A DNA stretch of 41,347 nucleotides from Sutcliffiella horikoshii DSM 8719 (GTDB lineage: Bacteria; Bacillota; Bacilli; Bacillales; Bacillaceae_I), in the NCBI GenBank assembly GCA_001648575.1, contig LQXN01000050.1, forward strand, positions 1-41,347, in the 5' to 3' direction. Positions 16,515 through 40,781 of the stretch are shown one piece after another. Below the pieces are notes generated by a model. That model did not search any database and was not told the DNA's origin. It worked only from the letters and a program-made list of their open reading frames with translations. Within the stretch, counting starts at the first letter, position 1; each line of letters begins with the position of its first letter. The position numbers and the translations under genes are program-made.

Positions 16515-16606
16515 AGCTATACGATAAAGGCAAACTTATCGAAAGGTAAGGACGCAAAGCTACGAACCTAATGCAACATTGCTACGGTAGTCGGGTTACC
16601 GAAATT
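16515..16606 (+). ncRNA. Cyclic di-GMP-I riboswitch (GEMM-I)
   Basis: The conserved parts of the class I c-di-GMP aptamer are in order: AAAGGCAAAC, a hairpin capped by a GAAA tetraloop (CTTATC-GAAA-GGTAAG), GGACGCAAAGCTACG, CCTAATGCAACATTGCTACGG as tetraloop receptor arm, then GGTAGTCGGGTTACCG. It senses cellular c-di-GMP. A terminator follows at 16614. ACCGAAAT (16598-16605) is perfectly complementary to ATTTCGGT (16633-16640) inside the terminator loop, so an antiterminator can form that excludes both the aptamer's last hairpin and the terminator. From this I infer that ligand binding favours termination (an OFF switch); this is not proven. Confidence 0.93.
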
Positions 16607-23450: not shown

Positions 23451-23503
23451 TTCGCTTGTAATTCCACTATCTAGGGCGATTGCAGCATAGTGGATCGCAC
23501 CTT
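23451..23503. repeat. Palindromic repeat, GCGATTGCAGCAT-type
   Basis: GGGCGAT-TGCAGCATAGTGG-ATCGCACC. It is related to 18262-18320 and 38826-38866 and is again just upstream of a small gene. Confidence 0.65.
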
Positions 23504-23557
23504 ACTTAAGAATTGAGCAGGACTACATAATAGAATTTTAGAGAAAGGCGGGATTAC

Positions 23558-24498: not shown

Positions 24499-25776
24499 TT
24501 ATTGGATTAAATTTTTTGTAAACACCCAACCGTTCATTTCCAGGTCATTCTCCCCTTTATATATTATATATGACCAGTTTTTCTTTTTATCTAGAATTAT
24601 TACAGGAGTGTTCATGGGTATTGTATCAAGCATTCCACTTTTTCTTCTATTAGATTTATATATGTTGGTTTCTCTATTAGTTATACGTACTTTATTAATA
24701 AGAGAATTGTCGTATACTTGTTGTTTTTGTAATTCAACTTTTATATAAGTTATATTATTTTTAACCGAAATATGCTCTAATTCGCGAGTTTGAAAAACTT
24801 CATTCTTCATTGATTCTTGCATGTAAGGTACTATTATCACATTCCATATAATTACAACTAAACCTAAATGATAAATTATATAGAAAAATGGACGTTTAGT
24901 TTTCAGCTCGGTTGGAAAATTAATGATTTTTCTACAAAGTTCGTTAATCCATTCGTATACATTTTGAGTATCACTTATTAGTAAATCTTCTTGATTTAAT
25001 TCTGAATCTGCGTTAAATTCTATAATTTCACTAGTTTTTATTTTTATGTCAGTAACTTTCTTAATATTCTCAACTAAGTCATTAGGAACTTCTATCCCCT
25101 TTTGAGAAATAGAATCCAAAGCTAGATTTATTTTCTCATAAGGTACCATACTTAATTGCTTATCAAGCTGTAAAGCTATCGCTCCAATATTACTTGTCAT
25201 TTGTGATGATTTACCTATCCCTACTTCTGATAGTCTTCTTACTTGCATATCAAATTGTAACATTGCTTTCCCAATGCCACTTGATAGTTGCATCGATTTA
25301 TCTATCCCTACCGAGAGTTTTTGGGTATCGAATTCAGATAATCTTTTAACTTGCTCATCAAATTGTAACATTGCTTTCCCAATACTACTTGATAGTTGCA
25401 TCGATTTATCTATCCCTACCGATATTTTTTGAGTATTGAATTCAGATAATTTTCTTACTTGCTCATCAAATTGTAACATTGCTTTCCCAATACTACTTGA
25501 TAGTTGCATCGATTTATCTATCCCTACCGATATTTTTTGAGTATTGAATTCGGATATTCTTCTTACTTGCTCATCAAATTGTAACATTGCTTTCCCAATA
25601 CTACTTGCTAGCTGAAGCGAGCTTTCTAACCCAAATGATTTTTCTAATGTATTTGTATATTCCCCAACAATTCTTTCTTTTCCAGTTCTATTCTTTTTTT
25701 CTAAAGAAGTGTTGATTTTGTTAACTTTTAAAGATTGTTCTTTAGAAATTTCACTAGCTTCTTTCAGTGTAACCAC
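24499..25776 (-). CDS. Tandem-repeat membrane protein with SH3-like C-terminus
   Basis: 425 aa, not recognised as a known family. Residues 48-190 hold four near-identical 36-aa units (core GIDKSMQLSSSIGKAMLQF), followed by a fifth diverged one to ~215; the DNA shows 108-bp tandem repeats at about 25207-25635. Each unit looks like an amphipathic helix pair, so the region may form a rod or oligomer. Residues 297-319 are one membrane helix (FFYIIYHLGLVVIIWNVIIV). Residues 360-425 look like a bacterial SH3 domain (MNTPVIILDKKKNWSYI... NGWVFTKNL). The start is uncertain: GTG at 25776 overlaps the ribosome site AGAGGTGG, and CTG at 25767 has better spacing (5 nt). It stands alone between two long direct repeats and next to the RM operon. 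Confidence 0.75.
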   Translation of the reverse strand: MVTLKEASEISKEQSLKVNKINTSLEKKNRTGKERIVGEYTNTLEKSFGLESSLQLASSIGKAMLQFDEQVRRISEFNTQKISVGIDKSMQLSSSIGKAMLQFDEQVRKLSEFNTQKISVGIDKSMQLSSSIGKAMLQFDEQVKRLSEFDTQKLSVGIDKSMQLSSGIGKAMLQFDMQVRRLSEVGIGKSSQMTSNIGAIALQLDKQLSMVPYEKINLALDSISQKGIEVPNDLVENIKKVTDIKIKTSEIIEFNADSELNQEDLLISDTQNVYEWINELCRKIINFPTELKTKRPFFYIIYHLGLVVIIWNVIIVPYMQESMKNEVFQTRELEHISVKNNITYIKVELQKQQVYDNSLINKVRITNRETNIYKSNRRKSGMLDTIPMNTPVIILDKKKNWSYIIYKGENDLEMNGWVFTKNLIQ

Positions 25777-26757: not shown

Positions 26758-29739
26758 TTACTGGACACTAGCTTGTTTTAATACTTCATATATGTGTTCT
26801 CCGACCTGACCTTCTAGTTGATCACGGAAGAAATCATCCTCTAACACTTTCCCAAAGAATCCTTGGTTTTTCTCATAACCTTCTACCACATAGTCCATAA
26901 ATCGTTTTCTAAACCCTAAAATAAAATCCTCATAAGTATTGTTCTGTGCTTGGGTTCGAAGGGTGGCATCACCTGCGGCGATGTCAACGATTTGCTGGAT
27001 GTTGAGCTTTTCATGATCTCCAAATTCCGTTCCATTTTTAGAATTTAGTCGTTCCAAAATGGCCGTAAGCGGATCTTTTGGAGGATCCTCGTTAGCTCTG
27101 CCTCCGCTAATATCAATACCCACTGTATAGTCTTCTTCGTCCTCTCCAAGGGAGATGCTGCCATGATCTTTCTTTTTAAGGGAGTAGAACTCCAGTACGA
27201 CCTTGTCCTCTAAGTCCACTTTTGTGCCAGGTTTTAGAGCAATTTTCTGCAGCAAATAGCGTAGATAAACAAACAGTTTGTGAAGATCAACGTCTTTAAA
27301 CGGAGTAATCTGCAAGACGAACATATAGATGCTGTTAAACTTTTTCGCTTTACTTACAAAATCACGTTGCTCTTCGTCCGTTAGGTTGCTATATCGGCGT
27401 TTTGCTGAATCGATTAGATTATTGGAAAGCTCGATGTCACGTTTTGTTTGTTTTTCTTTTTCCTTGTAGAGAATATCCATCAACTTATCGATTTCTTCGT
27501 CATTTAAAACCATATAATCCTGTATCTCTTGTTGAATGCTATAAAGCTCATTAGGGTCGATATCGCCTTCCAGGACGGTATCCTCATAATAAGGTTCAAA
27601 AGCTTTTCGGATGTCATCAGGGTCGTTTACAAAGTCTAGAATGAAGGTATCTTCTTTGCCAGGATAGGTTCGATTGAGGCGAGAGAGTGTTTGAACTGCT
27701 TTTAAACCTGAGAGCTTTTTATCCACAAACATGGTATGCAGCTTTGGTTGATCAAATCCTGTTTGGTATTTTTCCGCTACGAGTAACACTTGATATTCCT
27801 CACTATCAAACTTCTTAGGAAGCTGCTTTTCGGCGAATCCGTTCATCTCTGTTTCTGTATATTCCTCTCCACTGTTTTTTACCGTCCCTGAGAAGGCCAC
27901 CAATGCCTTCATATCCTTGTAATTCTTCGCTTTGATGTATCGATCAAATGCTATCTTGTAACGCACTGCATGAAGGCGGGAAGCGGTCACCACCATCGCT
28001 TTTGCCTGACCATTTAATTTTTTACTCGTAATGCGTCTGAAATGCTCAATAATGATTTCCGTTTTCTGATCAATGTTATGGGGATGAAGGCTCACAAATC
28101 GAGAAATCGCCTTTGTTGCCTTGGCACTTTCAAATTCAGGATCCTCTTCAATTTTCTTAGCGACTCTATAGTACATTTTGTAGGTGGTGTAGTTTTTCAA
28201 CACATCGATGATAAAACCTTCTTGAATCGCTTGTTTCATGCTGTAGAGGTGGAAAGGGTGAGGTTTCCCTTGTGCATCTTCTGTTCCAAACATTTTTAAT
28301 GTGCTGCCTTTTGGAGTGGCTGTAAAGGCAAAGAAACTAATGTTGGATTGTTTTCCAACGCGATTCATTTCATCAAGAATTTTATCCTCGGTGTCTTGTT
28401 CTTTTGCTTCCGCTTCCTCGTCCATCTTTTGAGCTTCTTCCAGTGTTAAACTGGTGGTAAGTGCGGCCATGTTTTTGCCACTCGTGGAGGAGTGTGCTTC
28501 ATCAATAATGATGGCGTATCTTTTATCTTTAAGTGTTCCGAGTTTATCCAAGATATTGGGAAACTTTTGAATCGTCGTGATGATGATTTTAACACCCTTG
28601 TTTAGTGCTTCTGCGAGCTGCGAGGAGTTCTCCTCGATTTTTTCTACCATGCCTGCTTTATGTTCTAGTTGATAGACCGCCTTTTGAAGCTGTTTATCCA
28701 AGATTTTACGGTCTGTGACTACAATCGCTCCATCGAATACGGACTCGTTATGTTCGTTATGCAGGGTAGCTAGTCGATGAGAGAGCCATGAAATGGAGTT
28801 CGTTTTGCCGCTTCCTGCACTGTGTTGGATTAGATACGATTGTCCTGGACCAAAAGCTTTTGCGTGCGTGAGCACCTTTTTAACAGCATCTCGTTGATGG
28901 TAACGAGGAAAGATAAGCGTTTCTTTTGTGAGGATGTTTCCTTCATCATCTTCATCTTCGTCAACAATGAGATAAACAAACTTATCAAGCACTTCTAGAA
29001 GGCCCTCGCGTGACAACAAGTCTTCCCAAATGTAATGCGTACTCAGTTTGCCTTTAATAATCGGGTTGCCTTTTCCTCCGTTGTCACCTTTATTAAAAGG
29101 AAGGAAGAACGTTTTGGTGCCGTTTAGCTTTGTCGTCATGAATGCTTCATTTGTGTCAACCGCAAAACAGACAAGTGTACGTTGCTTGAATCGGAAAAGA
29201 AGATCTTTGCGGCTTCTGTCATGCATCCATTGATGTTTGGCATCGCTTACATCTTGTCCTGTAAATTCATTTTTTAGCTCAAATGCAAGAACAGGTAGAC
29301 CGTTTAGGAAAATTACAAGATCAATTCGTTCCCCTTCTTTATGAACCAATTCCTCTGTTACAGAAAGTCTGTTTTTTTGATACAACTCCATCAGTTCTTG
29401 ATTCAAGGAGGTAGGAGGCTTGAAGTAAGCGAAATTCAGCTGCACGCCGTAATCTTTGATGCCTTTACGAAGTACATCAATCATCCCGCGGCGTTTCAGT
29501 TCTGCGTCCAGTCTTGATAAGATTTTTTGCCTGTATTGACCTTTGTAGATATCTTTTAATCTACCAAGAGCCTTTTCTTGCGTTTCCTCTAAAAAGGAGA
29601 ATAATTGCCATTCATCGACGGCATACTTCTTATTGTAATCCTTATTTTTGCCTTCCAGGTAACCATTTTCAGTGGTCAAGTATTCCTTGACCACTGTTTG
29701 AAAAGCCCGTTCTTTTAATATATCAGGTGTAACAATCAT
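26758..29739 (-). CDS. hsdR: Type I restriction endonuclease, R subunit
   Basis: 993 aa, the normal length. The N-terminal nuclease domain has the PD-(D/E)xK type core (IDLVIFLNGLPVLAFELK at about 138-155). The SF2 translocase motor follows with Walker A QHSAGSGKT, DEAH box IIIDEAHSS and motif III FFAFTATPKG. Later helicase motifs are VLLVAEKYQTGFDQP and QTLSRLNRT. The C-terminus should contact HsdM/HsdS. It cuts unmodified DNA at a distance after translocation, as part of the R2M2S complex. ATG 29739 overlaps the hsdS stop as ATGA, behind GGAGGTGA, so translation is probably coupled. It is the last gene of the operon; all key motifs are intact. Confidence 0.97.
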   Translation of the reverse strand: MIVTPDILKERAFQTVVKEYLTTENGYLEGKNKDYNKKYAVDEWQLFSFLEETQEKALGRLKDIYKGQYRQKILSRLDAELKRRGMIDVLRKGIKDYGVQLNFAYFKPPTSLNQELMELYQKNRLSVTEELVHKEGERIDLVIFLNGLPVLAFELKNEFTGQDVSDAKHQWMHDRSRKDLLFRFKQRTLVCFAVDTNEAFMTTKLNGTKTFFLPFNKGDNGGKGNPIIKGKLSTHYIWEDLLSREGLLEVLDKFVYLIVDEDEDDEGNILTKETLIFPRYHQRDAVKKVLTHAKAFGPGQSYLIQHSAGSGKTNSISWLSHRLATLHNEHNESVFDGAIVVTDRKILDKQLQKAVYQLEHKAGMVEKIEENSSQLAEALNKGVKIIITTIQKFPNILDKLGTLKDKRYAIIIDEAHSSTSGKNMAALTTSLTLEEAQKMDEEAEAKEQDTEDKILDEMNRVGKQSNISFFAFTATPKGSTLKMFGTEDAQGKPHPFHLYSMKQAIQEGFIIDVLKNYTTYKMYYRVAKKIEEDPEFESAKATKAISRFVSLHPHNIDQKTEIIIEHFRRITSKKLNGQAKAMVVTASRLHAVRYKIAFDRYIKAKNYKDMKALVAFSGTVKNSGEEYTETEMNGFAEKQLPKKFDSEEYQVLLVAEKYQTGFDQPKLHTMFVDKKLSGLKAVQTLSRLNRTYPGKEDTFILDFVNDPDDIRKAFEPYYEDTVLEGDIDPNELYSIQQEIQDYMVLNDEEIDKLMDILYKEKEKQTKRDIELSNNLIDSAKRRYSNLTDEEQRDFVSKAKKFNSIYMFVLQITPFKDVDLHKLFVYLRYLLQKIALKPGTKVDLEDKVVLEFYSLKKKDHGSISLGEDEEDYTVGIDISGGRANEDPPKDPLTAILERLNSKNGTEFGDHEKLNIQQIVDIAAGDATLRTQAQNNTYEDFILGFRKRFMDYVVEGYEKNQGFFGKVLEDDFFRDQLEGQVGEHIYEVLKQASVQ

Positions 29740-31118
29740 CTTTTCACCTCCAAATCGCTTTCATTGTAATTTCGAACATCAATTTTACCAGTAACAGCTT
29801 CATATATGAGAGATTGACGGTATTTTTGTAGCACTTCAATTTGGTTAAATATTTTATTGACTGCAATTTCTATTTCTTCGCTTTTGTTTTTTATAAATTC
29901 GAGAATATTTTTTTGTTCCTCTAAGGGTGGTAAAGCTATAGAAATCGATTTGACTATTTTTGAATTTAGCCCTGACATAATACTACCTTTAGAATTTATT
30001 CTTAAAAACTCTTCAACGTAGTTGCTTTTATCTATCACAAAAGAAATATACTTAGGAATAGCCATATTGGTCTTGATTTTTAATTTCATTAAATGTGAAT
30101 CGATAATGCCACTTGTATATGTTGAAGGTACGACTTGACTTTTTCCAATTGTTCCCATCATCGATATTAATAAATCACCTTGACTAACTTTATATTGAAT
30201 CATTTTTTTATACTTTTCATTACTAATGAATCTATGTCCTAAAGTAAAATTATTAGAAATTAGATTCTCTTGTCCGTAAACTTTATATTGATATGATTCG
30301 TTCATCTCATCTAGTTTCAAGCTGCTACCGAATGGTCCAATCCTAATATCGTCTAATAAATATTTTATCTTTTTTACTTCCCAATGCTCAGGAATTGGAC
30401 CAATCCACTCCACGCCGCTGTCCTTCATTTTCGCGTGGGGATTAAGCCCACGCGTCACGTTTTCGCTTATTAGAGATTGACGGTATTTTTGAAGGGTTTC
30501 TAGTAAAATCTTTTTGTGTTTTATTATTGTTTGGATATGCACAGATTTTTCATTAAGAAAATTAGCAATGGCTACTTGCTCCTGAAGGGGAGGATATAAA
30601 ACCTTAAAGTTTTTTACTAATGATAAATTAGTCCTTAATCTTGTTGAACCAGTTGAATGTGATTCAGCATTTGACCTAAAATAATTGCAATTAATTGCAT
30701 AAACCAAGAACCTTTTATCGATTTTTTCTTCATCTACCAAGAACTTAATGCAATCCGAAGAGATTAAATACCTATCATATTCGTTATTTACTATTGCTGC
30801 TCTAGCAACGGGCATCATTTTAGTAATAACAATATCACCTGGAAAAATGTTACTACGCTTCAATTTATTCGCTTTATCTTCTGATGTATATTTAGTATTT
30901 TTATTTATGTGCTCTCCGTCTTTAAGATTATTTAACTGAATAATAGGAATGCCAGAGTCGGTGTAATGTTCTGTTTTCAAATCAGAACCGAACGGTCCAT
31001 CAACAAAATTATCACTTCTATTAGTTGTTAGGTTTTTAAGTTTAATTTCATTCCAGTGAAAGGGTATTTCACCTACTAAAGGGATACTACTAATTTTATA
31101 GTCGTTATACCTTTTCAT
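29736..31118 (-). CDS. hsdS: Type I RM specificity subunit
   Basis: 460 aa with the two-half layout. TRD1 (about 20-170) begins GEIPFHWNEIKLKNL and is followed by the first conserved helix (LPPLQEQVAIANFLNEKS ... LQKYRQSLISE). TRD2 begins WIGPIPEHWEVKKIKYLLDD and is followed by the second helix (LPPLEEQKNILEFIKNKS ... LQKYRQSLIYEAVTGKID). Each TRD reads one half of a bipartite target; the target cannot be deduced. An identical 20-bp stretch occurs at the end of each half (29809-29828 and 30472-30491). The gene overlaps hsdM by 14 bp and hsdR by 4 bp. Confidence 0.96.
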   Translation of the reverse strand: MKRYNDYKISSIPLVGEIPFHWNEIKLKNLTTNRSDNFVDGPFGSDLKTEHYTDSGIPIIQLNNLKDGEHINKNTKYTSEDKANKLKRSNIFPGDIVITKMMPVARAAIVNNEYDRYLISSDCIKFLVDEEKIDKRFLVYAINCNYFRSNAESHSTGSTRLRTNLSLVKNFKVLYPPLQEQVAIANFLNEKSVHIQTIIKHKKILLETLQKYRQSLISENVTRGLNPHAKMKDSGVEWIGPIPEHWEVKKIKYLLDDIRIGPFGSSLKLDEMNESYQYKVYGQENLISNNFTLGHRFISNEKYKKMIQYKVSQGDLLISMMGTIGKSQVVPSTYTSGIIDSHLMKLKIKTNMAIPKYISFVIDKSNYVEEFLRINSKGSIMSGLNSKIVKSISIALPPLEEQKNILEFIKNKSEEIEIAVNKIFNQIEVLQKYRQSLIYEAVTGKIDVRNYNESDLEVKR

Positions 31119-33153
31119 TAAATATTCCCTCCATCAAATTCAATATTTCAGCTTCTTTTTGTTGGATTAACTCTTGATAAGCTGTTGATGGGGACAAAAA
31201 TTTATATTGATAAAAATGTCGTGTAATTGGAATTTCAAAGCCAACCTTTGTTTTACTCTCATCAATCCATGCACCAGGAACATGAGGAAACACTTCACGC
31301 TGGAAGTAAGCATGGATAGACTCACTCAACGGGACATTTTCCGTATCTCGAAGGGTCGGATCGGCTTCCATGTTCCCTTTTTTATCCTGACAAACGTCAG
31401 CCGTTTCATCTCGTTCAGAAAGCCCCATATAAATCGCTTTCCATAATCCCGTTTTCACTTCTGAAACACTGTCGAAAGCGGGTTTTAGCATAGCAATAAA
31501 CTCTTCACGATTTTTATATACCTTGTCAGAAATATTCTCCTGAAGGATAGCGATAATTTTCTCTTGCAGCATTTTACCTTCCTCTAGCTTCGCAAGTTTT
31601 TTAGTATCGGCTGCCTTTTTATCTTTTTTACGTTGAAGCTCCAGGTACACTTCTTCATCGAATAACTTAGCAAAAGCTGCCTCGTTGTAGAGATTTTCAA
31701 TCCGCTCTGGAGATATCATGAAATTTAATTGCAATGGGCGTTCAATGGTAATCTTTTGATATCCGAAGTCCTTCAAATCAAAAATCTTGCTCCGTTCATT
31801 CTCTTTGAAGTCACCGTAAATGCGGGATATCTCATTAATTTGCTCTTCAGTAATTTCGTTCCGCTTACTTCCGAGACTTTTTCGCATTTTGACGAAATAT
31901 TGCGTCGCATCAACCAATTGAATTTTCCCTTTACGAACGGCACCTTTTTCAAGTTTTTCGTTTTTTCTATTAGAAAGAATCCAGATGTACGTGGAAATTC
32001 CTGTGTTATAGAAAAGCTGATCGGGAAGAGCAACAATGCCTTCTAACAAGTCATTTTCAATAATCCAACGACGGATTTCGCTCTCGCCACTGCCAGCATC
32101 ACCAGTGAATAAGGGTGATCCGTTAAAGATTATTGCCATTCGGCTGCCTTTTTCATCTTGCTTCATTTTGGAGACCATGTGTTGTAAGAAAAGAAGGGAA
32201 CCATCGGAAGTACGCGGAAGCCCCGCACCATAGCGTCCATCAAACCCTTTTTCTTGGTGTTCTTCAATAATACTGGCACCGTAATGCTTCCAGTCCACTC
32301 CAAATGGAGGATTCATTAGAGCATAACGTACTTTTAAGTCCTTATGACCGTCATTATCATTTAACGAGTTGCCAAACGCGATATGTCCCGCATCTTGCCC
32401 TTTAATCAACAAATCGGCACAAGCAATCGCATAGGACTTCGGGTTTAACTCTTGTCCAAACACTTCTACTTGTGTGCTTGGGTTGAATTCTTTAATAAAC
32501 TCCGTTGCTTCCGAAAGCATTCCGCCCGTTCCGCATGCAAAATCTCCAACCTGGACAATCTTACCTTGTTGCATCAGTTCTGATGGGTCTTCGTTTAAGA
32601 TAAGGTTTACCATCAGCTTAATTACTTCACGAGGGGTATAGTGATCCCCGGCTTCTGCGTTTTCAGAAAAACGACGAATCAACTCTTCAAATATGTATCC
32701 CATCTGCATGTTGGAAACCTTTTCGACGCTAAGGTCCATTGCTGCAAACAGTTGAACGACACTATAAAGCAAGTCATGTTCGTCCATTTTCTTGATTTCA
32801 TCTTCAAAGTCAAAGCGTTCAAATATCACACGTACATTGGAAGAAAAGCCCTGTATGTAATTGCGAAGGTTCGCTGCGATGTTGTCGGGATCATGCAAGA
32901 GAGTTTGGAAATCAAACGGACTCGTGTTGTTAAAATCATATCCAGCGATTCTGTTTAAGATAGCATCATGTTTCACGGATTTCGCCTTTTCCAGCACTTG
33001 TGCTTTTGTCGGTACTAATAAGGAATCAAAGCGGCGTAATACGCTAAGTGGTAGGATTACATCACGATATTCTTCTTTCTTATAGGGGCCGCGTAGAATT
33101 TCTGCGTTTTTCCATATAAAGTTAACGAATTCATTATTTTCTATAATTTGCAT
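31105..33153 (-). CDS. hsdM: Type I RM methyltransferase subunit
   Basis: 682 aa, longer than the ~500-aa standard because of a C-terminal extension. The N-terminal HsdM_N helical domain is at about 1-140. The N6-adenine methyltransferase core has SAM-binding motif I (VGDFACGTGGMLSEA) and catalytic motif IV NPPFG (LMNPPFGVDWKHYG). The extension from about 490 is rich in charged residues (QRKKDKKAADTKKLAKLEEG) and ends FYQYKFLSP...EAEILNLMEG. It adds methyl groups to the HsdS-defined site. It is first in the operon; ATG is behind GAGGTGAT. No convincing promoter was found in the bases upstream. Confidence 0.96.
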   Translation of the reverse strand: MQIIENNEFVNFIWKNAEILRGPYKKEEYRDVILPLSVLRRFDSLLVPTKAQVLEKAKSVKHDAILNRIAGYDFNNTSPFDFQTLLHDPDNIAANLRNYIQGFSSNVRVIFERFDFEDEIKKMDEHDLLYSVVQLFAAMDLSVEKVSNMQMGYIFEELIRRFSENAEAGDHYTPREVIKLMVNLILNEDPSELMQQGKIVQVGDFACGTGGMLSEATEFIKEFNPSTQVEVFGQELNPKSYAIACADLLIKGQDAGHIAFGNSLNDNDGHKDLKVRYALMNPPFGVDWKHYGASIIEEHQEKGFDGRYGAGLPRTSDGSLLFLQHMVSKMKQDEKGSRMAIIFNGSPLFTGDAGSGESEIRRWIIENDLLEGIVALPDQLFYNTGISTYIWILSNRKNEKLEKGAVRKGKIQLVDATQYFVKMRKSLGSKRNEITEEQINEISRIYGDFKENERSKIFDLKDFGYQKITIERPLQLNFMISPERIENLYNEAAFAKLFDEEVYLELQRKKDKKAADTKKLAKLEEGKMLQEKIIAILQENISDKVYKNREEFIAMLKPAFDSVSEVKTGLWKAIYMGLSERDETADVCQDKKGNMEADPTLRDTENVPLSESIHAYFQREVFPHVPGAWIDESKTKVGFEIPITRHFYQYKFLSPSTAYQELIQQKEAEILNLMEGIFNEKV

Positions 33154-33781
33154 AAATCTATCACCTCAAGTAGTAAAATTTCGATCTTTTGTCGATTACC
33201 ATTTTTATTCTACAGTATGGCTCTAAACCATTTTGTCGAACTTTGTAGAATATAGGTAATTTGTATATTTATCAAGGGATGGAAGCTCAAAAAAACTCCT
33301 GCGATAGGACAAAACATTCGCCTTATACATTTTGATGAGGAAGGGTTCAAATGATAAGTGCTCAATTTCTTGGCTTTCTTTTTCGAAATGAAAAGATAGT
33401 GCAAAAAGTAGCGTACAGAAGATTTAAGTAGTTCGGTTGAGAGGTAGAAAACAGAAAATAACGGTTTATTTAGTGGCGATTTTACATAGGAATTCACTTT
33501 ATTATTATTGTTGGTATGAGAGTGTTTAGCGTATTTTTGCATATCGATTAGCAGGGGCTTTTAACATTAGTTTTAGCAGGTGGACAATATCTATTGGTCG
33601 GGGTTCAAAATGTTGCTAATGTGCCTGCTAATTTAACTGCTAATCCACAAAAACTATAAGGATTAATGGAAAAAGCATGGTACTATTAAAATATATGGTA
33701 TTCCATTGGAAACGGTCTTTCCAACGTCGAATACAATAAAATGGACTGATATATGTCATCAAATTAAAGGGGGGGACAAAT
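33154..33781. other. Divergent intergenic region with a small remnant
   Basis: About 630 bp between hsdM (minus) and the next plus-strand gene; it must hold their promoters. At about 33565-33657 the plus strand reads LVLAGGQYLLVGVQNVANVP... to TAA without a usable start, which looks like the C-terminus of a lost small protein. Nothing else is recognised. Confidence 0.4.
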
Positions 33782-34390
33782 ATGTCTAGAATACCAATTG
33801 GAACAATTATAGAAGGCGTAAAAAAATATGGACCAAAAGCAGGGAAAATTATTAAAGACAACCGCAAAGAGATAACTGCAGTGTTAGGTGTTTTAGGCGT
33901 AGGAGATGTAATTAAAAAACGTATGGAAAAGAAAGAAGAATCAAACAATACAGAAGGAGAAAAATGGCATTATAGGAAAAGGCGTTATAAACATTATGAA
34001 AATAAATTACTACCTGAATTGGATAGTCAAAATAGGAATGAACTTTTTCAGTATGTGCTTGAAATCGAAAAGTTTATTCAACAGATAAAAAATGAGAAAA
34101 AAGAAGATATTGGCATAAAAAAGCCTATACATGAAAAAAGAATTAAAGATTGGAATGATATTCTTATTCAAATTAAAGATAAAATGTCTACAAAAGATTA
34201 TCTTGAATTTATTAAAATTTATAACAACCCTAATTATCAAAGTGAATATTTTAAAGGTTTTGAGGGTGATGTTGAGAAATTTAAAAAACTCATTAATGGT
34301 GAAAAATATGATGATCTATTGAAATATACTGCAAAAATAACTAGTAGGAATATTGATCAAATCAAGAAAGATTTCTCACTAACAGACTAA
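33782..34390 (+). CDS. Protein of unknown function next to the RM operon
   Basis: 202 aa. The N-terminus (1-45) is amphipathic and glycine-rich (IPIGTIIEGVKKYGPKAGKI, ITAVLGVLGVGDVIKK), and could insert into or lie on a membrane. The rest is highly charged and helical (Lys and Glu rich). A strong GGGGGGG is followed by ATG. I know no family for it. Its place between a type I RM system and a kinase suggests a role in the defence region, by context only. Confidence 0.6.
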   Translation: MSRIPIGTIIEGVKKYGPKAGKIIKDNRKEITAVLGVLGVGDVIKKRMEKKEESNNTEGEKWHYRKRRYKHYENKLLPELDSQNRNELFQYVLEIEKFIQQIKNEKKEDIGIKKPIHEKRIKDWNDILIQIKDKMSTKDYLEFIKIYNNPNYQSEYFKGFEGDVEKFKKLINGEKYDDLLKYTAKITSRNIDQIKKDFSLTD

Positions 34391-34889
34391 TATAATGACC
34401 GAATAATTTAAGCCAACATGGTTAAAATAAAGGGCTGCCGCATGATCTTTTTAATTTGGGCAAAAGGGAAATACAATTGAGTATATGGATGCGTCTTCAT
34501 TCCCTTTCAGGATTCTCCCCCATGGACTTTTTCTGAGCGGAAAAGATAAGGAATGTTAAAAAAAGTGCAATGTGAATATTAAAGTAACGGGTGCGTTGAA
34601 TTAGGAAACCAGTTTTCTGTTTAAATTTTTTTGAACCTCTAACGTCAATGAAGTTAGAGGTTTTTTTATGTAGCATGAGAGAAAAAGCCTATTGAGGTTA
34701 TTTTAGACTAAAGTTACCTCTTTCTTTGCCTCATGTACCATTTCTCGCAGAGTATGTAATTTATCCAATCAAATCAACTCGTCTTAATCATAATCCGGGT
34801 GACTTTTACTACTTTTCCATAATAGGAAAATGAAAAATATGTTAATATTTACATTGTACTACTAAATTTGTTAATCTTGGGAGGGCAAG
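34391..34889. other. Intergenic, terminator and repeat fragment
   Basis: It holds TAACGGGTGCGTTGAATTAGG at 34586-34606 (the same motif as at 22869) and the terminator at 34634-34667. The promoter of the kinase should lie between 34700 and 34880, but no clear one is seen. Confidence 0.5.
34634..34667 (+). terminator. Strong terminator
   Basis: AACCTCTAAC (34634-34643) pairs with GTTAGAGGTT (34653-34662), followed by T7. It separates the unknown 202-aa gene from the kinase gene. Confidence 0.88.
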
Positions 34890-36110
34890 ATGGAGAACCT
34901 AGATGGATACATTCTAATAAAGTTAAATCAGATACGTTCAAAGTACAATACGGAAAAGGCAGTCTTATTAAAAAGCTACTACAATCAAAGTGAAAGTAAA
35001 AATTTAAATGAATTGTTCATGATTCTTCACAGCACGTTAAATGACTTATTTTTATTTCTAAATTCTAAGAATTATCGAGGTCAAGGAGGTCATTTTAATG
35101 CTGATCCAAGTAGGGATCTAATTGACATTATTGAAACAATAAAAGTTATTCAGGCAAATATTAAGGAGGATTTTGAAATTAGCTTTAGTTTAGATGAAGA
35201 ATATAATAGAGTAATTGAAGCCTGTTCAAAATTTTTATCTGGGAATGGTGGCAGCACGATTCCTAATGGATTCCCCAAAATTAGCATTATAGAATCAAGA
35301 GCCATTTTTTCTTTAGATAACTTTGTAGAAATAGGAGAAGAAAAAAACATAAAAAGGGCAAGAATAGAGCAAATTGGTCGGGGGTCATATTCTACAGTCT
35401 TTGAGTTTAAAGACTCTTTTTATGACACAAAGTTTGCTATGAAAAGGGCTTTTCCAACCCTTACTAAAGAAGAATTAGTACGATTTGAAAATGAGTATAA
35501 ATATTTAAAAACTCTAGATTCACCATTTATTATAAAGGCCTATGGATACGATGATAAAAACAAAGAATATACAATGGAATTAGCTGATCAAACTTTAGAG
35601 AAATATATTCTTAAGGATAGTAATAAACTATCTTTCCTAACAAGGAAAGCTTTATTGATACAATTACTAAGAGCTTTTGAATATATTCATGAAAAAGGAA
35701 TGTTACATAGGGATATAAGCTATCAAAATATTTTGGTTAAACATCATGATGATGGTACCTCCATGATAAAAGTATCTGACTTTGGATTAGTAAAAGCTCC
35801 AGAAAGTACATTGACAGAGAATGGAGCAAGTGTGAAGGGAGCAATAAATGATTCAACCGATCTTACGGTTGTAGGATATGAAAATTATGAGATTAGACAT
35901 GAAACATATGCCCTTGCTAAAGTAGTGTATTTTATACTTACAGGTAAAAGTTCTAATTTCCATCTTGAAAAAAATGATGAACTTAAAGCATTTATATTAA
36001 AGGCAATTTCCCCAGATAAAGAGAAGCGATTTACTGATATTAATGAATTGAGGGAGATATTACTTGAAAAAGTGCTCCCATCACTTAAAAAGAAATTAGT
36101 AAATGCGTAG
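34890..36110 (+). CDS. Stand-alone Ser/Thr protein kinase with novel N-terminal domain
   Basis: 406 aa, no membrane segment. Residues 1-150 form a helical N-terminal region I do not recognise (with YRGQGGHFNADPSRDLIDII). The kinase domain follows at about 155-400: glycine loop IGRGSYSTVF (162-171), Lys185 in FAMKRA, catalytic HRD at 273-275 in HRDISYQNIL, and DFG at 297-299. All catalytic residues are present, so it is probably active; the usual HRDxKxxN Lys is Ser-Tyr (HRDISYQN). It lacks the PASTA repeats of PrkC. ATG is behind GGGAGG. Its setting between RM and SIR2 genes suggests a phage-defence kinase, by inference. Confidence 0.85.
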   Translation: MENLDGYILIKLNQIRSKYNTEKAVLLKSYYNQSESKNLNELFMILHSTLNDLFLFLNSKNYRGQGGHFNADPSRDLIDIIETIKVIQANIKEDFEISFSLDEEYNRVIEACSKFLSGNGGSTIPNGFPKISIIESRAIFSLDNFVEIGEEKNIKRARIEQIGRGSYSTVFEFKDSFYDTKFAMKRAFPTLTKEELVRFENEYKYLKTLDSPFIIKAYGYDDKNKEYTMELADQTLEKYILKDSNKLSFLTRKALLIQLLRAFEYIHEKGMLHRDISYQNILVKHHDDGTSMIKVSDFGLVKAPESTLTENGASVKGAINDSTDLTVVGYENYEIRHETYALAKVVYFILTGKSSNFHLEKNDELKAFILKAISPDKEKRFTDINELREILLEKVLPSLKKKLVNA

Positions 36111-36190
36111 AATATACTTAATCATGAAAAAGGACCTCCCTACTAGTAAGCCGTTCTCTTTTGAAATATTCGCATAAGAAAAGGTAAGTA

Positions 36191-36249
36191 TAAAAATGCT
36201 AAAAACAGTGGATTTCCCTACTGAAATCTCACTGTTTTTAGCATTTTTA
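36191..36249 (+). terminator. Terminator after the kinase gene
   Basis: 36191-36210 pairs perfectly with 36230-36249 (20 bp), extended inward by GATTTC/GAAATC. T-rich on both sides, so it may work in both directions. Confidence 0.85.
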
Positions 36250-36571
36250 CAATCAATATATGATAATTCAGGGGAGATACTTCATGAACTAACCTAACGG
36301 GCAGAAATAGTTTATTTAGCGTTCCCATTCTATGGGTAGACGTACCAACAAACAATTACTTTGAAAGAACGGGCAATAAGAACCTTATGTTTCAAAATCA
36401 CTACTGGAACCTTAATAAGTTGTCATTTTAACAGAATAAAATCTGAACATAGCAAAGTACAGTGATGTACATGTTCTTCTTGTGTTTCTAAATTATATCC
36501 ATCATAGGCTTGCCCTTGTGTTGGATGATTAGATATTGTTAAACACGGGTGCGGAGCCTATACCATGATCA
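36250..36571. other. Intergenic, repeat fragment
   Basis: About 320 bp. AACCTAACGGGCAGAAATAG near 36290 recalls the TAACGGG repeats. No gene is seen. Confidence 0.4.
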
Positions 36572-36829
36572 TTATTTTCTCTTGCTACGGTTAATCCTTG
36601 CTCGATAGCCTAATCGTAAAAATCGGGGTAACTCATCTTGAATTTTTCCATCGATGACTTCCCTCACGTATTCATATTCCACTGCTTTTCCAGCTTCGTT
36701 CGCTCTTTTCACTACTTCTCTTAAACTATTCGTGTAGAAGGTGTCTGCTTCATAGGAATCCACCAGTTCAACATATGATTGCAACCGTTTTATTTCTTCT
36801 TTTGCCTTTGGTACAGTAATTAGTTTCAA
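36572..36829 (-). CDS. 85-aa protein of unknown function
   Basis: The start is set at TTG 36829 because AAGGAGG lies 9 nt before it; the longer frame from 36868 reads through that ribosome site. The protein is basic and helical (LKLITVPKAKEEIKRLQSYVELVDSY..., VVKRANEAGKAVEYEYVREV, GYRARINRSKRK). It resembles small conserved Bacillus proteins, but I cannot name it. The Arg/Lys-rich tail could bind nucleic acid. Confidence 0.6.
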   Translation of the reverse strand: MKLITVPKAKEEIKRLQSYVELVDSYEADTFYTNSLREVVKRANEAGKAVEYEYVREVIDGKIQDELPRFLRLGYRARINRSKRK

Positions 36830-37051
36830 TTCATACCGCCTCCTTAATGTATAGGTGAATTTCGACAAAATAGGTCTTATTACCTTCTTTTCAAAAAAAA
36901 GTAATAAATACGCAAACTTTTCTAGTCATTTATTTAACAAGGTACTTAGCAATTAGTCCTTTGAATCGTTTATTGCTCTTTAACATGTAACGGGAACAGA
37001 GTTATAAAAGTATGCTTTGTTTTTAGATAATTTTAATAACACTATATATTT

Positions 37052-37080
37052 TTGTGCTTTTTTGCTGGTTATTGTAAAAT
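37052..37080 (+). promoter_or_regulatory. Putative promoter of the SIR2-like gene
   Basis: TTGTGC (37052-37057) and TAAAAT (37075-37080) are 17 bp apart. The TTG start codon is about 31 bp downstream. Confidence 0.5.
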
Positions 37081-37111
37081 AATAGAAAAATAGATTTTGA
37101 GGGGGATACGT

Positions 37112-38653
37112 TTGAGTTTACCAACATTATCAGTATTTTTTGGAGCAGGGGCAGAAATTGGATACGGATTACCATCAGGAGGAAAGTTCGCATTAGAAAT
37201 ATTTAGGGTGTCAAACGAAGAAGATAAAGAATCGTTTCGGGAACAGATTCAGAGTATTGACTCTCGTTCTCAAATTGCTACTCAATGGCTTCCAGATAAT
37301 TATGCAAGCAAAAGGTTAAATGTCTTCGGTAAAGGTGAATTCGAAGGCCTTATCGCATCCAGTTTAGAAAACAGAAGAAGCAACATATTAGAGTACCTCG
37401 ACAACTTTGACACGAATGTTTCTAACATGTTGCGAAATTGGAAAGTAAACGAGACAGTTGTCCGTGAAAAATTCACTACAGAAACTGAAGAGCAGATTGG
37501 CGATATGAGATATAACCAAGCAATCAGGTTAAATGAGAAACTCGCTTCCCGTGTGCCGTTGTTCGAATCAGATTATTTTTCAGCATTCTTACGTTTATTA
37601 GAGAAGCACCCAACTGATCGCTATCTAAAAAGAATTGTAAGAGCCTATTTGGAGTTGCTCGTTGGAGCAATAGGGCAAAGCCTTGTTTCGCAACTTAACG
37701 AAGAGCTTTTTACGGCTGCACCTGATGAATTAAGCGTATTCGATGACTTATCAGGTATATTCTCTTTAAATTATCAAGGCGTCGGGCAAACAGGGATGGA
37801 GATTGTTATCGAAGAATTGCCTATTGAAGTCGATGAAACAACAGAAGGGTTAACGGTATTTAGAGAGTTAGGCCGTAGCATTCTAGAAGAAATCTATTGT
37901 CAGGCGATGGACTATCAAGCGTTGATTGACGGCCATTTTAGATACTTATACAATCCTAAGGCACAATGGGCTAAATTTAGCAGAATTGCTATCTTCCTCC
38001 ATACTGTTCAGAGGTATATTACAAACCATGTTCATGTTGACGAAACGAGGATATCAGAAGGGCCAGGATATTATCATGATTTAATAAATTTAAGAGAACA
38101 CTTTGATTTAAGAGCTGTAGGTACCACCAACTACAATAATTTCGTGCAACAAGTGTTGGCTGGAACAGAAATAGCAGAAACTCCAGTTTTCCATTTGAAC
38201 GGTAGTGTGATTGAATACTACGATCCATATAAAAACGAGATTCTAACAGAACCTTCTGCTGAAGAACGACGAGGGCGAATCTTAGTTCCCTTTATGTTTA
38301 CTCAAAGTGGTGTTAAACCTTTGACCTCCGTTAGTATGTCTAGAAAATATGTTGACCTTTACGATCACTTTGTTCAGTCGGATGCAGTATGTGTGATTGG
38401 TTATGGTTTCAACGGAGATGATGGTCATATAAATGGAATGTTCAGAAGTTTGGTTGAGCAAGAAAATAAACGGCTTTTCATTTTCCACTTTAAGAGTGAC
38501 AATCGTACTGAGCAGCAACTTGCAAGATATTATCAACAAAAACTACGATTGAATTCTTCTAGTAACATTAGAGTAATGTTAGTGGATGCCAATCGTACAT
38601 GTAATGAAAACATGTGGTACGAAACAGTGAAAAACGAGTTAATACCATCCTAA
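37112..38653 (+). CDS. SIR2-like (SIR2_2-type) protein, probable defence NADase
   Basis: 513 aa. The N-terminus has the NAD-binding loop FFGAGAEIGYGLPSGGKFA (from residue 9). The middle (50-330) is a long helical insert without known domains. Then come the other SIR2 blocks: GTTNYNNF with Asn340, FHLNGSV (361-367) and VCVIGYGFNGDDGHINGMF near the C-terminus. The usual LHG catalytic His is Asn363 here (LNG), with His361 two residues earlier. SIR2-like domains in bacterial defence systems deplete NAD+ on infection. TTG 37112 is chosen because GAGGGGG lies 6 nt upstream. It seems to be a single-gene unit ending at a terminator. Confidence 0.85.
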   Translation: MSLPTLSVFFGAGAEIGYGLPSGGKFALEIFRVSNEEDKESFREQIQSIDSRSQIATQWLPDNYASKRLNVFGKGEFEGLIASSLENRRSNILEYLDNFDTNVSNMLRNWKVNETVVREKFTTETEEQIGDMRYNQAIRLNEKLASRVPLFESDYFSAFLRLLEKHPTDRYLKRIVRAYLELLVGAIGQSLVSQLNEELFTAAPDELSVFDDLSGIFSLNYQGVGQTGMEIVIEELPIEVDETTEGLTVFRELGRSILEEIYCQAMDYQALIDGHFRYLYNPKAQWAKFSRIAIFLHTVQRYITNHVHVDETRISEGPGYYHDLINLREHFDLRAVGTTNYNNFVQQVLAGTEIAETPVFHLNGSVIEYYDPYKNEILTEPSAEERRGRILVPFMFTQSGVKPLTSVSMSRKYVDLYDHFVQSDAVCVIGYGFNGDDGHINGMFRSLVEQENKRLFIFHFKSDNRTEQQLARYYQQKLRLNSSSNIRVMLVDANRTCNENMWYETVKNELIPS

Positions 38654-38724
38654 GAAATTTAAAAAGCACGCACTTTTTTAATAACGGGTTTACTTCAGAG
38701 GTGCAAACAAGTAAATATCAATGC

Positions 38725-38767
38725 AAAACGCACTGTATTTCACATAGAAATTCACAGTGCGTTTTTT
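38725..38767 (+). terminator. Terminator after the SIR2-like gene
   Basis: AAAACGCACTGT pairs with ACAGTGCGTTTT, followed by a T-run. Confidence 0.85.
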
Positions 38768-38825
38768 ATTGTTATACCAACTATAAAATGAGTTTTTAAG
38801 TCTAAATCTACAATGAAATCACATA

Positions 38826-38866
38826 AGAATATAGGAGCGATTGTAGCATAGTGAAGCCCACTCCAA
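38826..38866. repeat. Palindromic repeat, GGAGCGATTGTAGCAT-type
   Basis: GGAGCGATTGTAGCATAGTGAAGCCCACTCC. It is the third copy of the type at 18262 and 23451, again 30-60 bp before a start codon. Confidence 0.7.
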
Positions 38867-38899
38867 TAGAAAACTATAAGTACAAGGGGAGTTTATCAG

Positions 38900-39086
38900 A
38901 TGTCTAACCCGTTTGATTGTATTACTGAGTTTATTTTTGTGGAAATCGCAGTTTCTCCAGCAGATGTAATCTTGGTTCCTGGTGCCGATCAGAAAAGTAA
39001 TTAGATATGAATGGATTTATGAAAGAGAATGGTTAATTAAAAAGGTAGTACGCAATTTTTCTGCAGAAGACTATCCATTAACTTAA
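38900..39086 (+). pseudogene. YdcF-like (DUF218) remnant
   Basis: ATG 38900, behind AAGGGGAG, reads MSNPFDCITEFIFVE... and ADVILVPGADQ, then stops at TAG 39002. PFDCITxFIF and ADVILVPG match the beginning of YdcF/DUF218 proteins, whose body is missing. From 39006 another frame reads YEWIYEREWLIKKVVRNF... to TAA at 39084, which could be the C-terminus of the same or another gene. I infer an internal deletion. Confidence 0.55.
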
Positions 39087-39923: not shown

Positions 39924-40781
39924 TTAAAAATTAAAACGTTGGAACTCTGTTGGATAAGAGAAATTTATTGAAGAACTTTTAACAATGAACATTATATTTA
40001 TTTGACTATTAATTACCGTTTGGCAATATCCTACTTCTATTGGTCCGAAATGTTTTAATAGAGATTTTAATTGCCAAAAGCCTTGTAGTTGTTTTTGTTT
40101 ATTAAAGATTTCAATAACAAATCCTCCTTGTTCCCAAAAAAGTAATCTAAGGTACAATTTCTCAGATTCATTAAAGTGTAGTATTACGCCTCTAACATCA
40201 TATACATACTGAAAATCAGGTCGAGAATGTAGCTTAGTTTGACTGTATTGAAGTGCTTGTTCTTCCGTTTTCTTTAATAAATTGATGAATTGATCTAGAT
40301 TCAAATGCGCATCAGGTAGATAATAAAAATACTCTGTTGTCCATTTGTTCTCGGGTTTTTCTTCTAATAACCAAGTAATAGGGAGCCTTGAGAATAAAGC
40401 AATAGTCGCTAATATTTCTATTCTGGGTGAACTTACTAAATTAATTTTTCTTATCTCTGGCATAGGGCTCGTGTTGGTGACAGTCTGTAGTCCCTTTAAA
40501 AAACGTAAAGCATCATTTGGGATACCATATTTAGTATAAAGACTTTTCTGTGGCATTCCTAATATTTCTTTGGTTAAAAGAATTTTAAATCGTCCTGCTA
40601 GCGATACTGATAATAAGAACTCTCTAAATAATACAGGTTGTTTTCTTAAAATTAATAGCTCAGGTAAATCAACTATTAATCTTCCAACTCCATCAGATTT
40701 CTTAGAAAAAAACTCTTCCTCTGTGATAATACCGTTTATAACTTCAATAATAGATTCTATTCCAGAACTTGGTTTTTTCAA
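39924..40781 (-). CDS. 285-aa protein of unknown function
   Basis: I do not recognise a family. It starts at TTG 40781 with a modest GGTGAT upstream. It has no membrane helix or clear catalytic motif. The N-terminus holds VGRLIVDLPELLILRKQPVL and the C-terminal half is beta-rich (RGVILHFNESEKLYLRLLFW, FVIEIFNKQKQLQGFW). It lies in the same direction as, and about 80 bp before, the 51-aa and HTH genes, so the three may be a small module of a mobile element, perhaps replication or control related. Confidence 0.55.
   Translation of the reverse strand: MKKPSSGIESIIEVINGIITEEEFFSKKSDGVGRLIVDLPELLILRKQPVLFREFLLSVSLAGRFKILLTKEILGMPQKSLYTKYGIPNDALRFLKGLQTVTNTSPMPEIRKINLVSSPRIEILATIALFSRLPITWLLEEKPENKWTTEYFYYLPDAHLNLDQFINLLKKTEEQALQYSQTKLHSRPDFQYVYDVRGVILHFNESEKLYLRLLFWEQGGFVIEIFNKQKQLQGFWQLKSLLKHFGPIEVGYCQTVINSQINIMFIVKSSSINFSYPTEFQRFNF

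Follow-up and report, generated by a model that had tools for sequence, protein, structure and literature searches.

A divergent SIR2-like gene in a defence island of independent units in Sutcliffiella horikoshii

Organization of the defence island

Do a type I restriction-modification (RM) operon and the three genes that stand beside it on the opposite strand form one defence system or several, and what could a SIR2-like protein do among them if its family lacks the usual catalytic histidine? This question is raised by contig LQXN01000050.1 of Sutcliffiella horikoshii DSM 8719 (contig C53 of a 4.68 Mb genome in 67 contigs), whose 41,347 bases in their entirety are the window analysed here. 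In the list of open reading frames (ORFs), hsdM, hsdS and hsdR occupy the minus strand, and the plus strand carries a gene for a 202-residue protein, a Ser/Thr kinase gene and the SIR2-like gene, with intergenic gaps of ~0.5 and 1.0 kb. The analysis confirms the defence island and the independence of its genes from one another. The SIR2-like family is divergent, having no full-length match in the copies of PADLOC, Pfam and NCBIfam searched, and outside Bacillota its genes are found again and again inside type I restriction operons. We read the island as a patchwork in which a type I RM operon stands with single-gene units that were acquired separately. Of these, the SIR2-like gene most likely encodes an effector that acts on its own, is triggered by infection and works by abortive infection. 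Taken as a whole, this reading is held with moderate confidence.

Families were assigned with Pfam, PADLOC and NCBIfam copies at their curated cut-offs, and relatives were counted in 398 genomes of the window's class, from 145 genera, the window's own genome included. A first-pass annotation of the DNA had described an intact hsdM-hsdS-hsdR operon and, on the other strand, three unlinked single-gene units, each with its own terminator, which suggested separate acquisition, and two of them from families used in anti-phage immunity. This outline is borne out. ORFs together with Pfam and PADLOC matches establish the operon; ORF coordinates and a hairpin 3' of each gene delimit the three units; the kinase and SIR2 domains do belong to families used in defence. 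Separate acquisition is supported by relatives found in different lineages and by the fetched SIR2-family stretches, none of which carries the other two genes: relatives of the 202-residue protein or of the kinase are absent at E 1e-5 among ORFs of at least 100 residues in 53 such stretches, some of them short, and the stretches fetched for these two families contain no SIR2-family protein. The search for the same neighbours in other islands, which the annotation had proposed, did not find the three plus-strand genes together in any fetched stretch. Three details of that interpretation fell, in whole or in part, and are taken up below: the NADase label of the SIR2-like protein, the orphan status of the kinase amino terminus and the 202-residue protein as one without family.

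Family, fold and active site of the SIR2-like protein

The SIR2-like gene (37112..38653, plus strand) codes for a 513-long protein. Its longest frame begins at 37097, and translation probably starts at the TTG codon at 37112, directly behind GGGGG. Comparison with Niallia circulans gives dN 0.084 and dS 2.67 (the latter near saturation), with 61, 26 and 238 changes at the three codon positions, and the gene looks to be under constraint. Membership of Pfam SIR2_2 is reached by the C-terminal part only (4.9e-6; 27.1 bits against a cut-off of 24.5), and 21 of the 40 aligned family members match this model at E<=0.01. These 40 proteins are the basis of all invariance counts. The gene is listed with 48 related loci, and 53 SIR2-family loci make up the wider set; of 9 plasmid records, 5 were fetched. 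The predicted structure has the SIR2 Rossmann fold and its best structural matches in Foldseek include antiphage proteins. The PADLOC models SIR2, Aga_SIR2 and ThsA give no full-length match, the best reaching 29 bits over ~90 residues, and the lowest E-value of SIR2-type PADLOC models among the 40 members is 1e-7. Searches of the PDB gave no match at E up to 1 with the single protein sequence and only chance-looking matches with the family profile. No relative was found in the IMG/VR scan, in PHROGs or in the 60 further genomes sampled as relatives of the window's own.

The elements of a sirtuin active site are partly retained. The GAGAE loop (residues 11-15; 37142..37156, plus strand), likely nucleotide-binding, is invariant in 40/40 sequences, as are N340 and Y341 of the TTNYN motif (residues 338-342; 38123..38137, plus strand). 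As comparators we took the 14 of 22 wider SIR2_2 proteins that were picked for an LHG/IHG motif. In a joint alignment with them Asn340 falls on the catalytic Asn of the TxN motif (TTNYD) in 14/14, and the Asp or Glu of TTNYD faces Asn in 38/40 family rows. The same alignment sets the catalytic His of 14/14 comparators opposite Asn363, conserved in 40/40, so that the LNGS motif of the family (residues 362-365; 38195..38206, plus strand) stands opposite the LHGS of other SIR2_2 proteins. A scan finds LNG in 51 of the 53 loci, L085 giving no match and the most distant, L086, reading Thr. Profile-profile alignment instead places the HG motif of the comparators near residues 390-392 (ILVPF), where there is no His either. 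Motif context leads us to prefer the joint alignment, as does the position of the predicted strand 359-361 directly after the TTN strand and helix; in either alignment no histidine faces the catalytic one. Two further motifs are a TQSGxKPLTS signature (residues 397-406; 38300..38329, plus strand), with T397, Q398, S399, G400, K402, P403 and T405 invariant in 40/40, and DDxHIN (residues 436-441; 38417..38434, plus strand), whose His439 is likewise found in 40/40. To judge from the alignment, His439 and His361, which lies beside the LNG motif and is kept in 31/40, are possible stand-ins for the catalytic His.

In FAM118 sirtuins, mutating His or Asn abolished activity, according to the part of that report consulted (PMC12700824). 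Because of this result and of the missing catalytic His, the label "SIR2-like NADase" given in the first-pass annotation is an assumption: the His of LHG is Asn across the aligned family and NAD hydrolysis should not be taken for granted. Among the open-access SIR2 papers listed, no title or abstract opening describes a sirtuin family with Asn in place of His, which is weak evidence.

Genomic neighbourhoods of the SIR2 family

Neighbouring genes were scored with profiles built from hsdM, hsdR and hsdS. At least one hsd gene is present in 20 of the 53 SIR2-family loci. In nine of them (L021, L060, L063, L065, L070, L072, L073, L076, L079) the SIR2 gene is embedded, with hsdS before and hsdR after it on the same strand, and in all nine the gap measured from match edges is below 60 nt, or the genes overlap, on at least one side. 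Further extra genes in the same operons code for RhuM (L060), DUF6161 (L021) and DUF3800 (L075) proteins. Two Vibrio loci (L071, L074) have hsd genes, an AAA/HNH-like pair that we take to resemble Septu, and a gene for a PLD-type protein upstream of the SIR2 gene, all in one direction. Among the open-access papers listed, no title or abstract opening mentions a type I operon with a SIR2 gene in it, again weak evidence.

The family tree holds 44 of the 53 loci; left out were L050 and L081 (split), L078 (in-frame stop), L057 (close to L056) and L075, L080, L083, L085 and L086 (partial or distant). Rates of RM association use 37 of the 44 rows, seven with too short flanks being excluded, and 20 other SIR2_2 loci from the window's class (four in stretches <20 kb) serve as controls. 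Genes of hsd type lie near the SIR2 gene in 5/18 Bacillota rows, 14/19 rows of other phyla and 2/20 controls. The difference between non-Bacillota rows and controls (p = 7e-5) crosses phyla and is indicative only. On the tree the label "adjacent" changes 4 times against 11.4 in shuffles, a value as low being reached in 0/500. In 18/37 rows, including the window's closest kin, at least 5 kb to either side of the SIR2 gene are free of hsd genes. In the window's clade of five rows, three others have no hsd gene and L042 has its SIR2 gene ~500 nt downstream of hsdR; in the more distant L043 this distance is ~400 nt. The window's own SIR2 gene does not sit inside the type I operon as those of the 9/53 relatives do, and a physically coupled RM-SIR2 operon was rejected for the window, where the gene lies on the opposite strand ~4 kb from hsdM.

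Proposed role of the SIR2-like protein and alternatives

Sirtuin phage defences have been explained by NAD depletion, dependent in the tested cases on the Asn/His pair, as far as the consulted parts of this literature go. The SIR2-HerA (Nezha), DSR2 and ThsA effectors share with the window's family the SIR2 core, the GAGA loop and the TxN motif, whereas the family reads LNG for LHG and TTNYN for TTNYD in the joint alignment with SIR2_2 comparators and has its own TQSGxKPLT signature and a ~300-residue helical insertion. We propose that the SIR2 core (~residues 1-32 and 330-513) would bind NAD or an NAD product and that the insertion would sense infection or hold the core in an inactive state. 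The gene's counterparts in other phyla would be expressed together with type I restriction and back it up as a second defence. The kinase would be a second single-gene unit, of Stk2/PD-T4-6 type. What the analysis establishes is the predicted fold, the family with its conserved motifs, the absence of the usual catalytic His and the recurrence inside type I operons; that the protein defends the cell, what triggers it, that NAD is its ligand and possibly its substrate, and what the insertion does are points that we infer.

TgvAB of Vibrio cholerae and RloF of Campylobacter are further examples of additional genes carried inside type I operons. Those encode GmrSD-like or DUF262 proteins, in contrast to the SIR2-fold protein, which is free-standing in the window. 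The portion of the TgvAB report available states that its phage defence is independent of HsdR restriction activity (PMC11411939). The SIR2/HerA pairs of Streptococcus thermophilus (GAO_19) are a two-gene system with HerA, whose SIR2 genes, within a defence island, are situated either between two RM systems or downstream of one, as given in the accessible part of that work (PMC11514479); the likeness noted is one of position.

Several points weigh against the patchwork with a stand-alone effector. The usual catalytic His is missing, and to judge from the residues present NAD depletion may not happen. The Foldseek TM-scores are low, ~0.2-0.5 for sirtuin rows, with large rmsd. The window's SIR2 gene lies outside the RM operon, and Bacillota loci show no excess of hsd genes over controls (p = 0.22). 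The non-Bacillota loci were compared with controls of the window's class, not phylum-matched. Two of the nine embedded operons are damaged, hsdS of L021 being split by an insertion sequence (IS) and L076 having short hsd ORFs. Both control hits (L135, L136; SIR2_2 genes of another kind, in one genome) follow hsdR on the same strand after an hsdM-S-R operon; such placing is therefore not unique to this family, and a position next to restriction operons may be more widespread among SIR2_2 genes. Phage assays of SIR2-family members did not turn up, no member-by-member search having been made.

A bolder proposal, which we consider rather unlikely, is that the family forms a separate class of immune sirtuins that, without the catalytic His, bind or transform NAD by another chemistry, with type I restriction as partner in several phyla, and fire when restriction fails. 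With a widespread family that retains fold and Asn, lacks the His and often lies in restriction operons, one could ask whether there is a second chemistry of sirtuin immunity and whether back-ups are built into restriction systems. If true, names derived from the fold alone, such as "NADase", would mislead annotation.

It appears unlikely that the protein hydrolyses no NAD at all and binds NAD, ADP-ribose or a derived signal as a sensor or regulator. The loss of activity in FAM118 mutants would agree with this, as would the retained GAGAE loop and Asn340 and the contrast between Asn363 in 40/40 sequences (LNG in 51/53 loci) and LHG/IHG in the 14/14 comparators chosen for that motif. However, Asn340, His439 and His361 could support catalysis, strict conservation fits altered catalysis equally well, and the equivalence of the columns comes from one of two alignments, the joint and not the profile-profile one.

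Quite improbable is a guard of restriction, modelled on PrrC, which is linked to EcoprrI, in which the SIR2-like protein would watch the type I enzyme and kill or arrest the cell once a phage disables it. The nine loci with the gene tightly placed between hsdS and hsdR are what such a guard would produce, but the 18/37 rows without hsd genes, among them the window's closest kin, are not, and the RhuM, DUF3800 and DUF6161 genes in the same operons are as expected of a cargo slot. We consider it very unlikely that the three plus-strand genes play no part in defence and are mobile genes brought together by chance, a notion fed by the IS1182-type transposase fragment at the contig end, the right-flank gene found beside three tyrosine recombinase genes in a sister genome and the scarcity of hsd genes near the 202-residue family (1/15 loci), and countered by the SIR2 homologues found repeatedly inside RM operons and by the BREX and RM neighbours of kinase relatives.

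The Ser/Thr kinase

In the patchwork reading the second single-gene unit is the kinase gene (34890..36110, plus strand). Its 406-long product has a Pkinase domain (4.6e-27, residues 158-371) behind a conserved amino-terminal region of ~155 residues. The first-pass annotation recognized no family for the latter, which in fact recurs in 12/398 class genomes (two of them weak and broken by internal stops) from 11/145 genera. It is also present in 25 plasmid records, of which 21 are from Lactococcus and four cover at least 80% of the region. The window's kinase and ten aligned relatives (nine genome loci and one plasmid) have a single architecture; K185, HRD, N280 and D297 are kept in 11/11 rows, with DLG for DFG in two. 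Neighbours were scanned at five of the nine genome loci, and 4/9 have defence genes no more than 2 kb away: the kinase gene directly follows brxL in a BREX locus (L101), is near a type II methyltransferase gene (L106), or stands beside genes for a PtuA-like ATPase (L099) or an AbiH-like protein (L102). L105 has just a weak candidate-system match. PADLOC relates the protein to the defence kinases MAD6 (mad6, 1.2e-30), Stk2 (2.4e-30) and PD-T4-6 (8.5e-30) by the kinase domain only, within residues 156-396, with no full-length match to the Stk2 and PD-T4-6 profiles; unlike them, the window's kinase has its own amino-terminal region, the kinase domain being carboxyl-terminal. IMG/VR holds one weak partial relative. 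CapK was rejected as an identity for this protein, CapK being a GHKL-type kinase with HTH according to the part of its description consulted (PMC13373217).

The 202-residue protein

The gene at 33782..34390 (plus strand) encodes a basic 202-long protein, whose matches to Pfam, PADLOC and NCBIfam families stay below all cut-offs. In the libraries it is thus without family, as first annotated, but it has relatives in 18/398 class genomes, the last two weak. The island label is weakest for this protein, hsd genes being near only 1/15 fetched members of its family. Its closest relative (76%) has PtuA/PtuB-like genes on one side and a type I RM operon on the other, and in one genus the gene upstream of the relative is presumably smpB. 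In six loci the gene lies 45-56 nt upstream of a gene of an HNH cluster; a two-gene system of the two is weakened because all six belong to one genus and Pfam confirms HNH in 1/6. The highest hydropathy over 19 residues is 0.84 in the window's protein and 1.55 among 13 aligned sequences; with these low values and no evident membrane helix, membrane anchoring is unlikely. The single-sequence structural model has a pLDDT of 44.6 and no fold search was based on it. The PDB sequence search gave only chance-looking matches, the IMG/VR scan no relative and PHROGs a match at 0.0046 only.

The type I operon, hairpins and repeats

The minus-strand operon is intact, with hsdM, hsdS and hsdR overlapping by 14 nt (hsdM/hsdS) and 4 nt (hsdS/hsdR). 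HsdM, the methyltransferase (31105..33153, 682 residues), matches Pfam N6_Mtase (5.2e-54) and HsdM_N and PADLOC MTase_I (1.4e-270). HsdS, the specificity subunit (29736..31118, 460 residues), matches Methylase_S in two stretches and Specificity_I (2e-106). HsdR, the restriction and translocation subunit (26758..29739, 993 residues), has SWI2_SNF2, ResIII and HSDR_N domains and matches TIGR00348 at 1.8e-60, yet under the model cut-off. A genome of the same genus shares 84% DNA identity in hsdR and 78% in hsdM, with hsdS largely different, and the operon looks ordinary and mobile. In a sister genome (L168, 444-4422 and 7054-13411) the same operon lies a few kb from TniQ and Mu-type transposase genes and may be Tn7-like cargo.

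The hairpins behind the plus-strand genes agree with the terminators of the first-pass annotation. A hairpin at 34634-34662 with 14-nt arms and a T run (34634..34669, plus strand) is the likely terminator of the 202-residue protein gene; one with 20-nt perfect arms follows the kinase gene (36191..36249, plus strand); a third, with 22-nt arms of 86% complementarity and a T run, follows the SIR2-like gene (38715..38775, plus strand). A consensus scan found 6 terminator-like sites against 2.5 (sd 1.6) in shuffles and missed all three of these forward-oriented hairpins, probably because it allowed loops only up to 8. The third hairpin lies within a stretch (~38679-38825) of which several genomes of the genus have copies, and may therefore be a dispersed repeat doubling as terminator. 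Short stretches at ~23461-23522 and 38679-38991 have many copies across genomes of the genus and are possibly small dispersed repeats.

Other features of the window

A tRNA-Val followed by a tyrosine integrase gene (1178-2489) makes a typical island border, and an IS1182-type transposase fragment lies at the contig end. The gene at 39924-40781 on the right flank encodes a 285-long protein and is 93% identical in DNA to a sister genome (L169), where its counterpart adjoins three consecutive tyrosine recombinase genes, perhaps a recombinase-in-trio element; no such trio is seen in the window's ORF list. In a 425-long protein encoded at 24499-25776, a unit of ~35 residues is repeated several times in similar form, and the C-terminal part matches SH3_3 narrowly below the cut-off. 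A c-di-GMP-I riboswitch (16519-16603) is found upstream of an EAL-like gene, in a region whose translations we take to be EAL-like, histidine kinase, response regulator and PilZ-like proteins.
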